IMG/VR virus record: IMGVR_UViG_3300037042_003768
Coordinates: 1 to 36,052 of that record
DNA: 36,052 nt
Strand: one strand, 5' to 3'
Source: a virus
This document shows positions 9,050 through 32,247 of this stretch, piece by piece (positions within the stretch are counted from its first letter, which is position 1; each line of letters opens with the position of its first letter). The notes beneath the pieces are model-generated. The model was given only the letters and a program-made list of their open reading frames with translations, searched no databases and was not told the DNA's origin. The position numbers and the translations under genes are program-made.

Positions 9050-10462
9050 CTACGCCGTGTTCCGGACCCGGGCGATCCGGGTCAACGCCTGCTCGATGCA
9101 GATCAGGCAGTAGTACCCGGCCACCAGGAACCACTTCTTGTCGCTGATCGTGGCGAGTTCCATGTAGCTCAGATCGCGGAGCGTCGGCATGTGCAGGGTG
9201 TTCCCCTCAATGCCGGGCACGCTGGTGGTGCAGAGCCAGATGTCCTCTTCAGCGGTCAGAAGTTCGTCCACGACGGCGGAAGCTGCCGTGAACTCCGTGC
9301 CAACGGGCGTGTAGGCCGCGCCGGTGACGACGGATGTGGCCGTGGTCTGAAGCGTGCGGACACCCGTGTCGATCCAGCTTGACACGTCCGTTGCGGTCAG
9401 GAAGCCGAAAGCGTCTGCCGTGTAGTTGGTGCCAGGGATCACCGTGTAGAGCGATTCTGACCCGGCACCACCCGCAGCCGCCGAGCGGTAGATCTTGTAG
9501 AGGCGGACGGACCCGGTTGCCGTCGGAGCGGTCCAGGCGAGGGTGACTTTTCCGTTACCACCACCACCGGAAACGGTCCCGGTGACGGTGGAACAGGGAA
9601 GGGTCTCGCCCGTGAGCAGGACCGCGGAGACGAAGTAACGGTAGGCACCATCGGCGACGGACCCGCCCGATGTCGCGGGCGTCGCGGTCACCGTGCTGCC
9701 CGGCCACGCCTGGTCAGACTGGATCATCGAGGTGCAGAAGATCGGGATGTTCCGGTAGCTCTTGAACCGGAACCCGCCCGGAACCTCGACCATGTCGTTC
9801 CACCTCTGCCCCGACGACTGCTGCAACGCGGAGATCCGCGACAGCATCTTGTGAGACATAATGAAGAACGAGTTATTGGGATCCAGGATCGTGCCGATGC
9901 GGTTCTGCTGCGTGTCGATGGCAGTGTCCAGATAGGACGTCGCCACTGCCGCACCACCGCCGGAAACGATGTTCGCGTTGCCCGTCTGGCTCCACTGCTC
10001 CAACCCCGAAAACATGTACGGATCGGCGTACTTGTTCCCGTAGAGGATCATGCACGCCTCTTCGTTCGCACAGGAGATCGTGGAACCGGCCACTTCCTTC
10101 TGGAGCGCGTCCACGAGTTCCTGCGAGGCGGCCTGCATGAACCCGGTGACGCCGCCCTTCCCCTGCATGATCTTCAGGGGCTCCTGGAAGCGCGCGTAGG
10201 TGCTCTGCGTCTCGGGCGCGGAAGTGCCGTCACCCACCATGCGGGCGCGGCCGAGCGCTGTACGCCTGTTCTTGTCGTAGGTGCCCGACTTCCACGGCGT
10301 GCGAGGGATGAGTTGCCGGAACGGGCTGTACTGTAGGGCAAGCTCTGAGATGTAGGGGTCTACGAGCTGCGGGATGAGCGCCTGCCCCGACGCGGTCGTC
10401 GAGTCCAGGGCCTTGTTGATCAAGTCTTCCGGGCTCCACGGCCCGGCACCAAGCTGGAACAT
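9050..10462 (-). CDS. Major capsid protein, HK97-fold, with an Ig/FN3-like insertion (470 aa)
   Basis: ATG 10462 follows GGGGAGG. Residues 1-245 and 396-470 form the capsid core: early ALIPQLVDPYISELALQ, then a QEPLKIMQGKGGVTGFMQAA beta/E-loop region, NSFFIMSHKMLSRI, and a hydrophobic C-terminus. Between them, about residues 252-395, is a Gly/Thr/Ser-rich beta domain (TLAWTAPTATGSVRLYKIYR), like an Ig or fibronectin-III module. Such insertions are known to decorate capsid surfaces. It follows the protease-scaffold gene, as expected, and has its own structured leader. Confidence 0.9.
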   Translation of the reverse strand: MFQLGAGPWSPEDLINKALDSTTASGQALIPQLVDPYISELALQYSPFRQLIPRTPWKSGTYDKNRRTALGRARMVGDGTSAPETQSTYARFQEPLKIMQGKGGVTGFMQAASQELVDALQKEVAGSTISCANEEACMILYGNKYADPYMFSGLEQWSQTGNANIVSGGGAAVATSYLDTAIDTQQNRIGTILDPNNSFFIMSHKMLSRISALQQSSGQRWNDMVEVPGGFRFKSYRNIPIFCTSMIQSDQAWPGSTVTATPATSGGSVADGAYRYFVSAVLLTGETLPCSTVTGTVSGGGGNGKVTLAWTAPTATGSVRLYKIYRSAAAGGAGSESLYTVIPGTNYTADAFGFLTATDVSSWIDTGVRTLQTTATSVVTGAAYTPVGTEFTAASAVVDELLTAEEDIWLCTTSVPGIEGNTLHMPTLRDLSYMELATISDKKWFLVAGYYCLICIEQALTRIARVRNTA

Positions 10463-21381: not shown

Positions 21382-21567
21382 TCATCGCCCCACCACCCGC
21401 AGCCTCGGCTTCGTCTCGACGACCACCGGCGCCGTCAGTTCGTTGACCCTAGCCAGCCACCGGCGCCGTTCCTCACCCCACGCGATTGCTTGCGCGAGGT
21501 GGTGCCGCTCGTACTCGGAGGCGCGGCGGAGCTCGTGGCAGGCCCATGCGAGGCGGAGGCGGGTCAC
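21382..21567 (-). CDS. Small basic helical protein (61 aa)
   Basis: GTG 21567 overlaps the previous stop (GTGA) with GGGAG 8 nt upstream. The sequence MTRLRLAWACHELRRASEYE is helical and Arg/Ala-rich, ending in TKPRLRVVGR. Unknown function; the coupling supports translation. Confidence 0.55.
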   Translation of the reverse strand: MTRLRLAWACHELRRASEYERHHLAQAIAWGEERRRWLARVNELTAPVVVETKPRLRVVGR

Positions 21568-22172
21568 GAGCGCATCTCCCGGTCCAGCTTCGTACAGACG
21601 GCCAAGAAATCCGCCCTGCCGCTGTCACAGGTGCTGTCCCAGTCGCTGGCCCTGGCCCAGGCGCTGTCCCAGGCGCTGTCGCAGGCGCTAGCCCAGGCGC
21701 TGTCGCAGGCGCTGGCCCAGGCGCTGGCCCAGGGGCTGTCCCTGGCGCTGGCCCTGGCGCTGGCCAGCTCTTCTTCCGTAGCCTCCCCGCGCGCGAATCG
21801 CTCCGCCACGACAATGACGGCCTCCGACCCCGGGGCCAAGTGCATCACCTTCCGGACCTGTTGACAGGCGTACAGCCGCAGCTCGCGCGAGATATCACGC
21901 CGCCAGAGTATCTCCCGGTGCCGCGAAGCGAGTTTGTCTACTGGATTGCCGTGATACACCACCTCGCCCCACTGGCGCACCCGGCACAGCACCGGCCCGG
22001 ACGCGTACTGGAGCGCGTCCATCGGATGCTCCGACCCGTGCAGCCCAGACTGGCACGGGATAATCTCCGGCTCGTCCGTGGTGTAGATGTAGCCCGGCTC
22101 CGAGTCCGCGCAGAATTGCGTGGTCCCGTCTTTGCGGCAGAACCACCAGGACAGGATCTTTTTCTCTCTCAT
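21564..22172 (-). CDS. DUF7666-like protein with C-terminal Ala-Ser-Ala-Trp repeats (202 aa)
   Basis: ATG 22172 (MREKKILSWWFCRKDG) is preceded by GGGAGGCGATCAG; the frame upstream of it overlaps other genes and is not used. The N-terminal ~120 residues (SGLHGSEHPMDALQYASGPV, LCRVRQWGEVVYHGNPVDKL, REILWRRDISRELRLYACQQ) resemble a phage/bacterial family (DUF7666-type, from memory) whose members often end in Ala/Trp/Arg tandem repeats. Here residues ~142-190 are (A/D)-S-A-(W/C/R) tetrapeptides from a 12-bp DNA repeat. Biochemical role unknown. Confidence 0.7.
   Translation of the reverse strand: MREKKILSWWFCRKDGTTQFCADSEPGYIYTTDEPEIIPCQSGLHGSEHPMDALQYASGPVLCRVRQWGEVVYHGNPVDKLASRHREILWRRDISRELRLYACQQVRKVMHLAPGSEAVIVVAERFARGEATEEELASARASARDSPWASAWASACDSAWASACDSAWDSAWARASDWDSTCDSGRADFLAVCTKLDREMRS
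21621..21768. repeat. 12-bp tandem repeat (about 12 copies) inside the DUF7666-like gene
   Basis: The plus strand repeats GCGCTGTCCCAG/GCGCTGGCCCAG with variation (GCAGGCGCT, CTGGCGCTG). On the coding strand each unit gives four codons, (G[A/C]C)(AGC)(GCC)(TGG/TGC/AGG). Unit length is a multiple of three, so copy number can change without breaking the frame. Confidence 0.85.
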
Positions 22173-22197
22173 CTGATCGCCTCCCGGACCGCCGCGA

Positions 22198-22608
22198 TCA
22201 TTCGTCCCTCCACATGGGCTCCGTGGGCCACGACTGTTGTTTGCCGCACACGGAACAATGTCGATAGCGCACGCCCATGACTGCCGGATCAATATAGGCA
22301 TTCCCGATTGACTCCGTACCGGGCTTCCACTGGTGCCCGTACCGATCGCAGATCGCGCCCTGTACCGCTAGAAACCTCAGCAATTCGTCGAGTTTGCCCT
22401 CTCGCTGGAGTTTGCCCACGAGGCGCTCGATGTCTGTCCTTGGCGGTAGAAAACAGAGAGAAACATCGGTACTGTCTGTTGCTGTCCACACCGGCGGCGA
22501 CTCCGCCCTGGCCACACGACACGCGAGGGCGATGATCGCCCACCAGAGCAGTCCGCTTATCACACACCCGAGTACCAGACCTTGCAGCGAGGTCCAGCGG
22601 CGGGTCAC
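22198..22608 (-). CDS. Membrane-anchored zinc-ribbon protein (136 aa)
   Basis: GTG 22608 overlaps the upstream stop (GTGA). A hydrophobic segment at ~9-31 (LVLGCVISGLLWWAIIALAC) is followed by a soluble part with ICDRYGHQW and YRHCSVCGKQQ, a possible Cys/His metal site. Function unknown. It is the last gene before the DUF7666-like gene in the small-gene chain. Confidence 0.6.
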   Translation of the reverse strand: MTRRWTSLQGLVLGCVISGLLWWAIIALACRVARAESPPVWTATDSTDVSLCFLPPRTDIERLVGKLQREGKLDELLRFLAVQGAICDRYGHQWKPGTESIGNAYIDPAVMGVRYRHCSVCGKQQSWPTEPMWRDE

Positions 22609-23006
22609 GACTGTGCCTCGAAGAGCTGGCACTTAGAGTGTGACCCCGACCAGCACGGCGATGCGATCGGCCACGTCACCTTCCAGCCACACCCGCCATA
22701 CACCGCTGGCAGCACCGGCCAGACCACCGGATACTCACACTTCCCGGGCAACGACCGCAGCACCCGGCCCGTTTCTGGGTTGCATGTCGGGGCGTAGTGC
22801 TTACAGTTACCGCAGCATGGTTCGGTCATGGCTGCGTCTCCTCTTCGTAGTCCGCAGCTCGGGCAGGTGATCGGCGGATCGCAGGCGGCGAGGGCAGCAA
22901 GGGCGTGGGCTAGACCCTCTGTCAGCCGTGCAACCTCGGCGCGGAGATGGTCTCGTTCTCTCGACAGCTCCCACCTAAGTTCGCGTTCGTCGTCCGCTTC
23001 GTTCAT
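22605..23006 (-). CDS. Coiled coil plus cysteine-rich protein (133 aa; may be two fused genes)
   Basis: ATG 23006 overlaps the upstream stop (ATGA). Residues 1-45 form a coiled coil (ELRWELSRERDHLRAEVARL). Then CPSCGLRRGD and CCGNCKHYAPTC are zinc-ribbon-like. An internal in-frame ATG (MTEPCCGNCKHY) has GAGGAG 9-10 nt upstream, so a shorter Cys-rich protein may also be made, or two genes have fused. Confidence 0.6.
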   Translation of the reverse strand: MNEADDERELRWELSRERDHLRAEVARLTEGLAHALAALAACDPPITCPSCGLRRGDAAMTEPCCGNCKHYAPTCNPETGRVLRSLPGKCEYPVVWPVLPAVYGGCGWKVTWPIASPCWSGSHSKCQLFEAQS

Positions 23007-23473
23007 CTCGCCGCCACCCCCACCGGCGCCTCGACAGCCCACGCCTTGCACGCGTCGAGAGAAAACGTGATCATTCCAGGTCCGGTCTGAACGTCAGTGA
23101 CGACGGTGCTTCTCGCTCGATTTTGCAGATATGCTTGAACGTCTCCGTCGAGCGTCACGACAACCCTAAGCCTGGCGTTGGAACTCGCCTTTCCGTGGTT
23201 TTGGGACAGCACGACACCGGAAAGGCCGCTCGTCAGTTTGATCGCCCCGCGAGTTCTGTTTAGTCCAAGCCGAACCCGGTCCCCCACAGACAGCCCCGCC
23301 TTATTGGCCAGACCGCGTGAAAGACTGAGAACAAATGTCGGCCTACGGGTCTTGCCTGAACTCGGAACGTAGACTGACGCTGTAAGGTCTGGCGCGTGAA
23401 GTCCATACGATCCAGGACTGCTGCGTCTCTCCATCCACACGAAGTCTTCGTCTTCCCGGTCTGATCCACTCAT
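23003..23473 (-). CDS. Phage protein of unknown function (156 aa)
   Basis: ATG 23473 (MSGSDREDEDFVWMERR) overlaps the upstream stop (ATGA). It contains VLSLSRGLANKAGLSVGDRV followed by alternating beta strands, a little like a small beta-barrel or AbrB-type region. It ends in AVEAPVGVAAR, nearly the same end as the upstream neighbour (IEAPVGVER). That sequence doubles as the G-rich ribosome site of the next gene. Confidence 0.6.
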   Translation of the reverse strand: MSGSDREDEDFVWMERRSSPGSYGLHAPDLTASVYVPSSGKTRRPTFVLSLSRGLANKAGLSVGDRVRLGLNRTRGAIKLTSGLSGVVLSQNHGKASSNARLRVVVTLDGDVQAYLQNRARSTVVTDVQTGPGMITFSLDACKAWAVEAPVGVAAR

Positions 23474-23742
23474 CTCTCCACCCCCACCGGCGCCTCGATG
23501 CGCCGCACCGTTCCATCCTCGACCCAGAACGAGGCGCGCCCCGGCCCGCTCGGCGCGCCCGGCGCATCCGCCGTGGCGATCACGATGACCGTCTCGATCT
23601 CCGCTACGTGCTGATTCTCCAGTGTTTGCGCGGTGTTTCGCTCTGCTACCCATCCTGTGCCACTGTGGTACTCGTCCATGATCGAGGCGCAACACTCATC
23701 CACATGCCACGTCCCATCGTCTCGTTTCAAGCATTCGCACAT
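23470..23742 (-). CDS. Cysteine-containing phage protein (90 aa)
   Basis: ATG 23742 (MCECLKRDDGTWHVDECCAS) follows GGGGAGCAAA. The N-terminus carries CEC and ECC cysteines; the C-terminal half has VAEIETVIVIATADAPGAP and SFWVEDGTVRRIEAPVGVER. Unknown function. The long upstream extension to 23943 overlaps the 79-aa gene and is not coding. Confidence 0.6.
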   Translation of the reverse strand: MCECLKRDDGTWHVDECCASIMDEYHSGTGWVAERNTAQTLENQHVAEIETVIVIATADAPGAPSGPGRASFWVEDGTVRRIEAPVGVER

Positions 23743-23776
23743 TTTGCTCCCCTCATCTCCACCGGCTTCGCGGCGG

Positions 23777-24016
23777 TCACGGCCTGGTCTCCTGAATGTG
23801 CCAGTGCACACCCTCGCCGGTCCCGATTTCGCATCCCTCTGCCGTGCCGTCGCAGGTCCGTTTGTAGCCCGGTGAACATCTCGCCCCTTCGCAGCAGCAC
23901 GGAAACGGGTCGCTGGTATTACAGGCGCACCCACCATCCTCATTGTAGAGCCCGTCGTACCCGTGTTCCGTCAGGTACGCCTTGACGATGTCTTTGACGG
24001 TAATTCTTTTGGTCAT
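23777..24016 (-). CDS. Cysteine-rich small phage protein (79 aa)
   Basis: ATG 24016 (MTKRITVKDIVKAYLTEHGY) has GGAGG 10 nt upstream and overlaps the previous stop (ATGA). The motif YLTEHGYDGLYNEDGGCACN is a recurring small-phage-protein pattern. Six or more cysteines follow (CCCEGARCSPGY, TCDGTAEGCE), likely binding metal. Function unknown. Confidence 0.7.
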   Translation of the reverse strand: MTKRITVKDIVKAYLTEHGYDGLYNEDGGCACNTSDPFPCCCEGARCSPGYKRTCDGTAEGCEIGTGEGVHWHIQETRP

Positions 24017-24178
24017 GGCGTTCTTACCTCCATGGTCATAGCCATCACGACGCCCCACATCTCGGCCTCGGAGTACAGTAGAAACAAGTTGCCGCCCTTG
24101 TCCGTTGACACCCGATACGCCGCATCAAAGAGCGGAGCGAACCGGCTTGACGATGTCCCATGTGGGCTTCGCGGTCAT
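24013..24178 (-). pseudogene. Small gene with an apparent +1 frameshift
   Basis: ATG 24178 has a strong GGAGG 8 nt upstream and reads MTAKPTWDIVKPVRSAL before TGA at 24127-24125. The next frame is open through this point, reads RFAPLFDAAYRVSTDKGGNL and on to TGA 24015-24013, and overlaps the next ATG (ATGA). Together they would make one ~55-aa protein if one base were removed near GTCAAGCCGG. Alternatively the second part starts at GTG 24111 (32 aa). Confidence 0.4.
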
Positions 24179-24180
24179 GG

Positions 24181-24405
24181 CTACGGCCTCCTGTCAACGG
24201 GCGGCGTGGGCTTGCACAGCTTGGCCTCCGCGTGCTTCCTCAGCACCCTCTCCGCCTCATCTCGGTCCATGTCCTCGGGGGCAAGGAGGAGGCGACGGCA
24301 AATCTCCACGACACACTTGATGCCGCATTTGCCACAGCTCACCCAGCCAAACCCTAGGTCCAGCATCGTACACACCGGGCACGGATCCGGCTCTCGCTGT
24401 GTCAT
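24181..24405 (-). CDS. Zinc-ribbon microprotein (74 aa)
   Basis: ATG 24405 overlaps the previous stop (ATGA) with GGGGGTGAA as ribosome site. CPVCTML at ~9-15 and CGKCGIKC at ~24-31 form a CxxC...CxxC zinc ribbon. A helix follows (EDMDRDEAERVLRKHAEAKL). Probably a nucleic-acid or protein-binding accessory protein. Confidence 0.65.
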   Translation of the reverse strand: MTQREPDPCPVCTMLDLGFGWVSCGKCGIKCVVEICRRLLLAPEDMDRDEAERVLRKHAEAKLCKPTPPVDRRP

Positions 24406-24530
24406 TTCACCCCCATTCCCACCGGCTTCGTCAACCTCTTATGGCACGCCCCGCAGACGTGGATCACCCGCCCGTTGTGGGTTATGTGATACGGCGCTGG
24501 GTTGCCGCAGGAGCAACGGTCTGTGGTCAC
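24402..24530 (-). CDS. Zinc-ribbon microprotein (42 aa)
   Basis: GTG 24530 follows ACGGAGGAAAC. The peptide MTTDRCSCGNPAPYHITHNG continues through VIHVCGACHKRLTKPVGMGVK: CxC and CxxC separated by 19 residues, a compact zinc ribbon. It ends in an ATGA overlap with the 74-aa gene. Confidence 0.65.
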   Translation of the reverse strand: MTTDRCSCGNPAPYHITHNGRVIHVCGACHKRLTKPVGMGVK

Positions 24531-24570
24531 GTTTCCTCCGTTTGTGTAAGTATTAGGGCAAGGAATGCAC

Positions 24571-24711
24571 TTACCCCGACCGCGACCGCGACCACGACCG
24601 CGACCACGACCCCGACCACGACCCCGACCGCGACCGCGACCACGACCCCGACCACGACCCCGACCACGACCGCGACCACGACCGCGACTCCACGAACAGC
24701 GTCGATATCAT
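24571..24711 (-). CDS. Ser-Arg/Trp/Gly repeat protein (46 aa)
   Basis: ATG 24711 overlaps the stop of the 113-aa gene (ATGA). After MISTLFVE comes 19 dipeptides Ser-X with X = Arg, Trp or Gly, coded by hexamers TCGNGG, then TAA. The overlapping start favours this frame. A competing frame through the same repeat gives a Val/Ala/Gly hydrophobic peptide ending in LALILTQTEET at 24527, in GTGA overlap with the next gene, and cannot be excluded. Confidence 0.45.
   Translation of the reverse strand: MISTLFVESRSWSRSWSGSWSGSWSRSRSGSWSGSWSRSWSRSRSG
24574..24687. repeat. Hexanucleotide tandem repeat TCGNGG x19
   Basis: The minus strand is 19 uninterrupted copies of TCGNGG (N = C, T or G), seen on the plus strand as CCNCGA repeats. 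All three frames stay open because the unit is 6 bp without stops, so the choice of frame rests on the flanking starts and stops. Confidence 0.9.
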
Positions 24712-25049
24712 TTCTGGACCATCGGGAGCGCGTGCGCCCACGGGAACACATCTACTACCGTGTCAGTGTTGAGCCACATACACCCCACGGGCTCAACTTC
24801 GCTGAGAGCGCCGTCGCGGATCGCCTGCGTGAACCGGCCCGAATCCGCGATCCATGACGCGTCTACTATCAGGACCCACCTACCGCGCACCTCGGACACC
24901 CGCCCTACGCAGTGGTAGGTCACGGTGCGGATGAATACAGACGATCCGACCACGAACACGGCAGACTCGTCGCCGTCACCGCTAGCGGTCTCGTGTTTTT
25001 CATTGCCGATCAATTCCTCGATCAGTGCCAGCACCATTTCCTTTTTCAT
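24708..25049 (-). CDS. Conserved phage protein next to the SGYGDG repeat gene (113 aa)
   Basis: ATG 25049 has GGAGGAG upstream (ATG 25052 is too close to it). After an N-terminal helix (MKKEMVLALIEELIGNEKHE) comes a beta-rich core VFIRTVTYHCVGRV, GRWVLIVDASWIADSGRFTQ and VEPVGCMWLNTDTVVDVFPW. I recall this pattern from other phages, found near the QRGWV protein and Gly/Tyr repeat proteins. Function unknown. The frame is open far upstream through the repeat, but that part is not coding. Confidence 0.7.
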   Translation of the reverse strand: MKKEMVLALIEELIGNEKHETASGDGDESAVFVVGSSVFIRTVTYHCVGRVSEVRGRWVLIVDASWIADSGRFTQAIRDGALSEVEPVGCMWLNTDTVVDVFPWAHALPMVQK

Positions 25050-25060
25050 CATCTCCTCCG

Positions 25061-25082
25061 TTTGTGTAACCGGGGCGGGCCG
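25061..25082 (-). repeat. 22-bp leader repeat, copy 1
   Basis: TTTGTGTAACCGGGGCGGGCCG (plus strand; first 20 bases shown by position) is identical to 25627-25648. It lies just upstream of the ribosome site of the 113-aa gene, so in the mRNA sense it ends TTACACAAAC followed by GGAGG. A shorter copy, CCTCCGTTTGTGTAA, is at ~24535-24549. Confidence 0.75.
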
Positions 25083-25144
25083 TCCACGGGCGTGAACCGG
25101 ACGATTACCCGCCATCCAGACGGCGGCACCCGCCCCGGAATCGG

Positions 25145-25345
25145 TCAAATCCCGTCCCCGTACCCCGACCCGTCCCCGTGCCCGTCCCCGTACCCCGACA
25201 CGACCCCGTCCCCGTACCCCGACCCGACCCCGTCCCCGTACCCCGACCCGTCCCCGCCCCCCGACCCGTCCCCCGACCAGTACCCGTACCCGCACCCGTA
25301 CCCCGACCCAACCGATAGCTGTGCATCCTCGCCGAGAGATGCCAT
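25145..25345 (-). CDS. Ser-Gly-Tyr-Gly-Asp-Gly repeat protein (66 aa)
   Basis: ATG 25345 shares a base with the upstream stop (TGATG), which fixes the frame among three open ones. After [12 protein letters not shown] the protein is 53 residues of Gly at every second position with Ser, Tyr, Asp, Cys or Val between, including four SGYGDG units (18-bp DNA unit). Such Gly/Tyr/Asp repeats occur in small phage proteins of unknown role. They may be disordered, adhesive or metal binding; no assignment is made. Confidence 0.6.
25151..25309. repeat. 6/18-bp tandem repeat coding SGYGDG
   Basis: Coding-strand units GGGNNN combine into 18-bp TCGGGGTACGGGGACGGG (SGYGDG), present four times with degenerate units between. 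As at 24574 and 21621, unit length keeps the frame. Confidence 0.85.
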
Positions 25346-25608
25346 CACGCGGGGCATACCGCATTCCATCCGGCGTCAGACGCCTCGATAGACATGATCT
25401 CTCCGAGGATGTGAAAGCGAACGGTTCCGCACGGATCACAGATGGTATCCTTCAGCGGCCCGGTAATGATCTCTCCGAGGCCCTTCTGCGTACCCCACCG
25501 GCGGATCACGGACGCCTTGCGCAGCTCGCAGTTGTCACCGCTTCTCCAGTATTCACCGACCAAAACCCATCCGCGCTGTAGCACCACAATGCGTATATCT
25601 CGGACCAT
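25345..25608 (-). CDS. Conserved phage 'QRGWV' protein (87 aa)
   Basis: ATG 25608 follows GAGGAGGACGAG. Sequence MVRDIRIVVLQRGWVLVGEY, then RKASVIRRWGTQKGLGEI and PCGTVRFHILGEIMSIEASD: a small beta protein I recall from many phages, usually near other small accessory genes. It ends in a TGATG overlap with the SGYGDG repeat gene, making a fixed pair with it and the 113-aa protein downstream. Function unknown. Confidence 0.75.
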   Translation of the reverse strand: MVRDIRIVVLQRGWVLVGEYWRSGDNCELRKASVIRRWGTQKGLGEIITGPLKDTICDPCGTVRFHILGEIMSIEASDAGWNAVCPA

Positions 25609-25654: not shown

Positions 25655-25716
25655 TATGCCGACTCCGCCGCGGAATTCCGTGCTCCGAGTATTTCTAGGA
25701 CGGCGGAGTCGGCATA
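25655..25716. repeat. Perfect 16-bp inverted repeat with 30-nt loop
   Basis: Arms TATGCCGACTCCGCCG (25655-25670) and CGGCGGAGTCGGCATA (25701-25716) are perfectly complementary. The loop contains a second palindrome, CGGAATTCCG (25671-25680). It sits between the 91-aa gene stop (25724-25722) and the QRGWV leader. No U-tract follows, so it is not a standard terminator. Confidence 0.85.
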
Positions 25717-31165: not shown

Positions 31166-31879
31166 TTACTCCACGGGCAAAAGTCCAATAAGATCTACAG
31201 AGCCAGCATCCGGTACTGTGACAAGTGCAACGTCCGATACTTCGTCCGAAAACCGTACAAAGTACCGAGATCCAGCCGGTGTGAAGTCCGAGTTCGGCCG
31301 CAATCGCACCGAAAACGACCCGTCACTCGCCGTGGTTGTCTCGATTGAGATGCTGTCAACCACACGACCCGTCTCGGCAATCAGCATCGGAGACAGCGCG
31401 TCCCGCTCGGAGATGTTCGGCTCGTCCTCCAGCACCAGCGGGAAAGACACAACCACCCCGGCCCGGGCCACTCCCGCGGCGTCCACAAGTCGGCCAGTAA
31501 CCGTAACGAACTCAGCAACAGGCTCTGCGTACGAAAACACTTCCCCGGGCCACTCGTCGTGAGAACCAGGAATAGACAAAACATCATAGACAATGCTCAA
31601 ACCATCGGGAGAAACAAACTCACCGGAATAACCAACACCCAAAGCAACCCGTGCCAGATAGATCCGGCCAAGGGATAGATCTGGATCCGGTACTGCTTCG
31701 ACAGCGCCAGCTCGCGCCGAGAAAACGTCAAGCCGATACACCTCGCGGAGCGGGGCCGTTAGGTCACGAGAAAACCGGAACCACAGATCAGAATCTTCGC
31801 CCCACAAAACGGACGAGATGGAGAACGCTACCTCGCGGCCCGCCTGGAAGACATCGTCCCGTACTACAACCCGGCTCAT
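31166..31879 (-). CDS. Tail-associated protein with C-terminal beta-sandwich domain (237 aa)
   Basis: ATG 31879 follows GGGGGTGAA. Residues 1-122 are a unique beta-rich part. Residues ~124-237 (FVTVTGRLVDAAGVARAGVV, LEDEPNISERDALSP, TPAGSRYFVRFSDEV) match the 114-aa upstream protein along its whole length. The VxGxLVDAxGxxxxGVxVSF pattern is like carboxypeptidase-regulatory/Ig-like domains. Probably part of a surface appendage. Confidence 0.65.
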   Translation of the reverse strand: MSRVVVRDDVFQAGREVAFSISSVLWGEDSDLWFRFSRDLTAPLREVYRLDVFSARAGAVEAVPDPDLSLGRIYLARVALGVGYSGEFVSPDGLSIVYDVLSIPGSHDEWPGEVFSYAEPVAEFVTVTGRLVDAAGVARAGVVVSFPLVLEDEPNISERDALSPMLIAETGRVVDSISIETTTASDGSFSVRLRPNSDFTPAGSRYFVRFSDEVSDVALVTVPDAGSVDLIGLLPVE

Positions 31880-31902: not shown

Positions 31903-32247
31903 CTATGTCGTCGGTAACAACGCAGAAATGTTCACCGGCCCAGTCGCCGGCACCGTGATCAGCGCCTCGTCCGCGGGCGAGTCAGAGAATGACACCAGGT
32001 AGCGAGACCCGACCGGAGTGATCTCCGTGTTGGGAGTCAGCGCCACCGTAAACGCCCCGCCGGTAGTCGTCACCACCACCACGGGCACACGCGAGACGAT
32101 ATTCGTCGACGTTGCCAATGGCCGCAGCGTCTCCTTCTCGGAGATGTTCGCCTCGTCCTCCAAGACGGGCGTGAACGAGATGGACACTCCCACGCGACCC
32201 GTCCCCGCCGAATCGACCAGGGTTCCTGTTACCGTTACCGCAGACAT
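31903..32247 (-). CDS. Single-domain beta-sandwich protein, paralogue of the 237-aa C-terminus (114 aa)
   Basis: ATG 32247 follows TAGGAGGATAG. It has VTVTGTLVDSAGTGRVGVSI, PVLEDEANISEKETLRPL and PVGSRYLVSFSDSPADEAL, aligned with the next gene's C-terminal domain including the final LLP. Either it forms a homopolymer or it caps the tail hub. Tandem paralogues imply duplication. Confidence 0.65.
   Translation of the reverse strand: MSAVTVTGTLVDSAGTGRVGVSISFTPVLEDEANISEKETLRPLATSTNIVSRVPVVVVTTTGGAFTVALTPNTEITPVGSRYLVSFSDSPADEALITVPATGPVNISALLPTT

Follow-up and report, generated by a model that had tools for sequence, protein, structure and literature searches.

In-frame dipeptide-repeat genes of an environmental virus record as probable halves of a phage two-gene module with predicted Sm/LSm-fold partners

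The IMG/VR virus record IMGVR_UViG_3300037042_003768, analysed here over its complete length of 36,052 nucleotides (hereafter the window; GC content 63%), carries within one 3.8-kb block of its minus strand three small genes with tandem repeat arrays. An earlier note on this DNA had described them as in-frame low-complexity genes, which raises the question whether the arrays are indeed translated in the frames proposed and, if so, what kind of proteins they encode and with which partners these might act. Comparison with related loci in other viruses indicates that two of them (genes 2 and 3) are each, very probably, the second half of a common phage two-gene module, which is protein-coding, translationally coupled, strictly paired with one type of small gene, and subject to in-frame drift of the array. 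Gene 1 belongs elsewhere and is treated separately below.

All three arrays were detected by Tandem Repeats Finder (TRF), with best scores of 180, 204 and 150, compared to a maximum of 63 in 50 dinucleotide shuffles of the window. They are real and far beyond chance expectation, and they lie in frame, as the earlier note had maintained. The features of the two modules are the following (all on the minus strand):

24571..24711: gene 2, 46 aa, a leader MISTLFVE followed by (S-R/W/G)n and a stop; assigned from frame statistics in relatives and from the sequence
24573-24688: array 2, 6-bp TCGNGG hexamers, 19.3 copies; TRF score 204 as a 36-bp unit
24708..25052: FIRTVT gene, partner of gene 2, encoding a small protein predicted to fold as Sm/LSm; assigned from 384 IMG/VR relatives and AlphaFold, Foldseek and VIA
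25145..25345: gene 3, 66 aa, a leader followed by a degenerate (G-Y/D/S)n; assigned from the leader common to relatives and from the sequence
25151-25309: array 3, 18/24/30-bp units with indels; TRF scores 112-150
25345..25608: RGWV gene, partner of gene 3, encoding a relative of DUF6948 predicted to fold as Sm/LSm; assigned from 267 relatives, hhalign and AlphaFold

The FIRTVT gene is preceded by GGAGG, and its stop is overlapped by the ATG of gene 2 (ATGA, within AATGA), which translates as MISTLFVESRSWSRSWSG...RSG. The same arrangement is found for gene 3: its ATG and the RGWV stop codon overlap (TGATG, within GTGATGG). The product of gene 3 ends in GYGDGI, and its array is degenerate in the window, with C, W, V and H units present.

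The openness of the array frames proves nothing alone, because in arrays so rich in GC nearly every frame is open. We therefore scanned other viruses for six TCGNGG units, which yielded at least 120 stretches, 109 of them arrays with flanks that could be used in a frame test. The frame that encodes Ser alternating with a variable residue (S-X, hence SX arrays) has an in-frame ATG within 60 nt upstream in 73 of the 109 arrays (6-18 for the other five frames), an ATG overlapping the upstream stop in 63 (other frames 0-13), and a stop within 12 nt past the array in 65 (other frames 7-16). ATG and stop occur together in 51/109 arrays in the S-X frame and in 0-2 in the others (Fisher P 2e-16 against the next-best frame, computed as if the arrays were independent). 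On these comparative counts the reading frames named by the earlier note are correct, and they are conserved in relatives. An alternative (RG)n frame, which would make the variable base synonymous, was rejected: no start codon for it exists in the window, and its ATGs are coupled in only 13/109 arrays vs 63. Leaders recur among the SX genes as well (MNxAILRxGFD, MIATIGNVNTLWW, M..SKQKYRS and others). At four loci (L013, L016, L067, L087) complete SX genes, leader and array, are repeated head to tail in up to four copies.

The genes upstream of SX arrays mostly belong to one family (...YFIRTVTHHHTGRL...AAWIADTGRF...EVEPF..., here FIRTVT) or to its relative LFC (...LFCANYIYTGKL...), a third partner family that is homologous to FIRTVT (hhalign 95.8%, E 8e-9). 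The FIRTVT profile, which retrieved the 384 stretches from IMG/VR, gave just 12 matches in about 85,000 bacterial and archaeal genomes, every one on a contig of a metagenome-assembled genome. A scan for the other array type, (G-X)n or GX, led to upstream genes that encode DUF6948 or its relative RGWV; as a single query the RGWV protein found no relative, and an alignment was needed to retrieve the 267 IMG/VR stretches. To avoid bias, loci were fetched by the profile of the small gene alone, leaving 76 FIRTVT and 76 RGWV loci with enough sequence. An (SX)n array lies directly downstream in 59/76 of the former and a (GX)n array in 69/76 of the latter, with leaders such as SLGEDAQ and NFEDSQNS, as in gene 3 of the window. 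Among these 76 + 76 loci there is no FIRTVT gene with GX alone downstream and no RGWV gene with SX; five FIRTVT loci were called both SX and GX, and we read them as GS-rich SX arrays. In the reverse test, with arrays found from the DNA pattern alone, the matching small gene is located within 700 nt upstream of 68/90 SX and 74/99 GX arrays. The small protein has about 85-115 aa and the repeat protein 45-90 aa, and the carriers comprise hundreds of environmental phages together with cultured phages of Rheinheimera, Rhodobacter, Pectobacterium, Iodobacter, Vibrio and green sulfur bacteria. In 25/160 loci of the two families the IMG/VR contig ends less than 400 nt past the Sm-like gene, vs 9 on its upstream side, as if arrays break assemblies, so that the frequency of the module in metagenomes is probably underestimated. 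Another small domain (TVVDVLDAGACxDGV...) with a C-terminal GX array was seen at seven loci (L229, L242, L256, L262, L289, L292, L298), in L229 downstream of a gene for a DUF6948 protein.

Both small partners are predicted to have the Sm/LSm fold. The AlphaFold model of the FIRTVT protein of the window (predicted local distance difference test, pLDDT, 87.9) comprises an N-terminal helix followed by five strands that form a bent barrel, and Sm/LSm or small nuclear ribonucleoprotein chains make up all 50 best PDB matches found for it (Foldseek, VIA; Z up to 9.8 over 71 residues at 2.3 Å). The model of the RGWV protein (pLDDT 92.9) likewise contains a five-stranded Sm barrel (Foldseek prob 1.00, E 3e-3 to 2e-2), with PDB 3by7 as its nearest structure (VIA Z 8.5, 73 residues, 2.8 Å), followed mostly by Sm/LSm chains. 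PDB 3by7 is an Sm/LSm-like protein from a marine metagenome, a pentamer of putative cyanophage origin, alike in structure and without a profile match in sequence; we know of no repeat partner for it. Neither small partner has a Pfam Sm/LSm match or a significant relevant PDB sequence match, and because of this lack of a sequence match to solved structures the fold is to be regarded as predicted, not proven. Homology between the FIRTVT and RGWV classes is not detectable by sequence (hhalign 1.3% and 4%), and what they have in common is only the predicted fold. The RGWV family is related to DUF6948 sequences (hhalign 95.7%, E 8e-9), with no match of the window protein to Pfam DUF6948 (PF22253) over the gathering threshold; by sequence it is thus related to the family but falls short of membership at this threshold. 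DUF6948 itself, the upstream partner of many GX genes, is without function in Pfam and does not detect the FIRTVT family; to our knowledge it has not been linked to a coupled repeat gene or to an Sm fold.

Conservation in the arrays concerns the peptide rather than the DNA. Any one array keeps almost entirely to a single Ser codon (on average 96% dominant), while between phages it is TCG, TCT, AGC, TCA or AGT. X is mostly drawn from three residues: in SX arrays these are W, G and an Arg that generally has one codon per array (AGG or CGG; in one case Lys instead), and in GX arrays Y and D together with either N or S. Units with His, Cys, Phe or Leu are rare though as easily reached by mutation, being one-step neighbours of TGG and TAC, and this rarity, together with a Ser residue kept over changing codons, argues for selection on the residues. 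A DNA-level element was ruled out on the same ground, as the anchor codon varies between phages and the residue does not. Homogeneity inside the arrays and repeated words point to recent duplication. The claim of the earlier note that copy number may vary without frame loss agrees with a comparison of repeat counts between near-identical phages: in Rheinheimera phages the repeat gene has 210, 216, 240 or 252 bp next to an RGWV-type gene with 0-1 differences and a following gene with none, in Pectobacterium phages 222, 204 or 258 bp next to a DUF6948 gene with 0-1 differences, and in the pair L160 and L164 306 vs 186 bp with identical sequence on both sides. Close relatives differ in length only by multiples of 3 bp, and the nearest ones by multiples of 6 bp.

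Taken together, these data suggest a model for the module. Comparison of loci shows a small gene and, behind it with an overlap or a short gap, a gene for a leader of about 8-20 aa and a dipeptide array, FIRTVT/LFC being paired with (S-[R/W/G])n and RGWV/DUF6948 with (G-[Y/D/N/S])n. The small protein is predicted to form an Sm/LSm-type barrel, as in ring-forming RNA-binding proteins. The array, by its codon and residue usage, is kept as amino acids, every other position being a small spacer and those between being filled from a set of one aromatic, one charged and one small residue, and unit order and number drift through in-frame duplication and loss. The alternating small-residue composition pointed out in the earlier note fits such a low-complexity sticker-spacer chain. 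The array product may then be disordered and multivalent, acting with the Sm-like protein to build or modify a ribonucleoprotein (RNP) assembly in the infected cell. We give roughly even chances to this whole chain, in which an Sm-like protein and a disordered sticker-spacer partner would join in an RNP-like assembly. A bolder version is distinctly more doubtful, if possible: phages would carry a widespread, undescribed RNP-type machinery of Sm-like rings with separately encoded, translationally coupled dipeptide-repeat partners, in basic (S-R/W/G) and acidic (G-Y/D/N) classes, which would build condensate-like compartments or RNA/DNA sponges in the course of infection. In favour of the model, one locus (L234) has a DUF6948 domain and a GX array naturally joined in one continuous reading frame, but no second such case was found among 350 Sm-like open frames. 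Several further points weigh against the model. About a tenth to a quarter of the small genes or arrays have no partner. The Z-scores of RGWV are middling (best 8.5), and a common fold is no proof of a common function. RNA binding, ring formation, disorder and condensates are putative properties of the module. Finally, SX and GX have opposite net charges per residue (+0.16 and -0.13, respectively), so that a ligand shared by both, such as RNA, is questionable in the case of the acidic GX type.

Other explanations of the arrays have to be weighed against this model. The arrays might be slippage-prone microsatellites in dispensable small genes, persisting because 6-bp units leave the frame intact, with a repeat peptide that is itself functionless; they are indeed homogeneous inside and hypervariable in length and order, and some Sm-like genes lack an array (17/76 FIRTVT and 7/76 RGWV loci). 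However, slippage does not account for the same peptide encoded by different Ser codons, the avoidance of H/C/F/L units, the conserved leaders or the strict pairing with one family, and we consider it an unlikely explanation. There is also little probability that the arrays are variable binding surfaces (decoy, receptor, adhesion or immune-evasion peptides) that gain from fast change of unit order. Order and number do change beside identical flanks (L160/L164, the Barba and the Pectobacterium phages), and aromatic and charged residues alternate with small ones, but the composition is conserved, the order looks near-random apart from duplications, no export signal was seen by eye, and the obligate Sm-like partner is left unexplained. 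No evidence was found for the adhesion or decoy roles that the earlier note had considered.

An action during translation, by which NGG codon arrays would slow or unload ribosomes and thus tune the operon or trap tRNAs or ribosomes, could be envisaged for the SX gene, as its X codons are almost always NGG and NGG codons near the gene start are known to cause peptidyl-tRNA drop-off (PMC12204400). Such codons are, however, expected here because Trp is encoded only by TGG, with R and G one step away, the array begins past the sensitive first codons, and GX arrays share the architecture without NGG X codons, which makes this possibility quite improbable. Even less can be said for a joint action of the three array genes of the window, e.g. 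co-condensation of basic S-R/W and acidic G-Y/D chains, despite their opposite charges and closeness. The other Sm-like class was present in just 0/50, 2/50 and 2/50 phages carrying one class, so that joint action is unlikely as a rule and a window with both is unusual; this, and the membership of gene 1 in DUF7666, speaks against the joint function considered possible in the earlier note.

The remaining array gene has the following features (minus strand):

21564..22172: gene 1, DUF7666 protein, 202 aa, with a longer open reading frame (ORF) reaching 22301; assigned from Pfam and the sequence
21648-21765: array 1, 12/36-bp units encoding (A/D)-S-A-(W/C/R), in the C-terminal part of gene 1; TRF score 180

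The gene 1 start is preceded by a GGGAGG ribosome site, and its translation contains ...ASARASARDSPWASAWASACDSAW.... Residues 68-137 of the long ORF match Pfam DUF7666 (PF24703) with 31 bits (gathering threshold 27, E 3.7e-7), so by profile match gene 1 is a member of this known family of unknown function. Its relatives L002 and L003 carry ASAW/DSAR arrays like that of gene 1, and L254 carries a GX array. Unlike in the modules, the array resides inside the same protein, which is not Sm-like by the tests made. One architecture (Sm-like gene, overlapping start, leader, dipeptide array) is thus common to two of the three genes, genes 2 and 3; the same array types in unrelated domains point to a common repertoire rather than a common complex. 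In L003 (7566-8606) the DUF7666 array shifts in mid-course from DSVWDSAW to ASIRASIYASID units, and a tetrapeptide array can thus switch its residue set.

Elsewhere in the window, a perfect 16-nt inverted repeat (TATGCCGACTCCGCCG) at 25655-25670 and 25701-25716, with a 30-nt spacer, lies between the RGWV operon and the next gene upstream, and is the only one of at least 14 nt within 200 nt in the block. The adjacent genes at 31166-31879 and 31903-32247 look like paralogues by eye (VTGRLVDAAG..ARAGVVVSF.. / VTGTLVDSAG..RVGVSISF..). A scan for relatives of the large late-region protein (9050-10462) gave no match.

Searches of Pfam, PHROGs and NCBIfam gave no significant family match for the repeat genes, FIRTVT or RGWV. 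The TrAA12 match of gene 3 is below cut-off and reflects composition, and this and similar weak matches (ClfA, SURF1, Peptidase_S29) were judged low-complexity or chance; a defence role was discarded as PADLOC gave no match. No paper mentioning DUF6948 or DUF7666 was found in a literature search of partial coverage, with most subscription journals outside it, nor, in a similarly partial one on phage hexanucleotide or dipeptide-repeat genes and phage Sm-like proteins, anything on the module; the Rheinheimera phage paper does not mention the repeats. The two DUF families are known by name only, and the two-gene module is apparently undescribed. In current annotation, array genes are misread in wrong frames or mislabelled: the GX gene of phage CV-1-33 (L437, 1783-2028) is annotated as MAMAMAL..., apparently in another frame, and that of ctOK67 (L420, 2743-3057) is labelled lamprin.

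Among known systems, bacterial contingency loci are likewise tandem repeats in genes with length polymorphism. However, they switch frame, whereas the phage units are multiples of 3 bp with the frame kept, and no out-of-frame length change was found among the close relatives compared, which argues against an on/off switch. The eukaryotic SmD1, SmD3, SmB and LSm4 resemble the proposed module in that a small Sm barrel is associated with an Arg/Gly-rich or comparable low-complexity chain, and such tails take part in RNA granule assembly. LSm-type granule proteins have low-complexity tails according to two papers (PMC10530990, PMC6693564), and RG-rich or Q/N-rich tails of Sm/LSm proteins in RNA granules serve as our model for the array partner. 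In contrast to the eukaryotic tails, the phage chain is as a rule a separate, overlapping gene, and its arrays are (S-R/W/G)n or (G-Y/D/N/S)n. If the array product does work with the Sm-like protein, bacterial viruses would have their own counterpart of the tailed Sm/LSm proteins, of a size that permits complete study. The module would then also be a natural library of disordered sequences in a ternary alphabet, from which it could be learned what composition and length such a chain needs.

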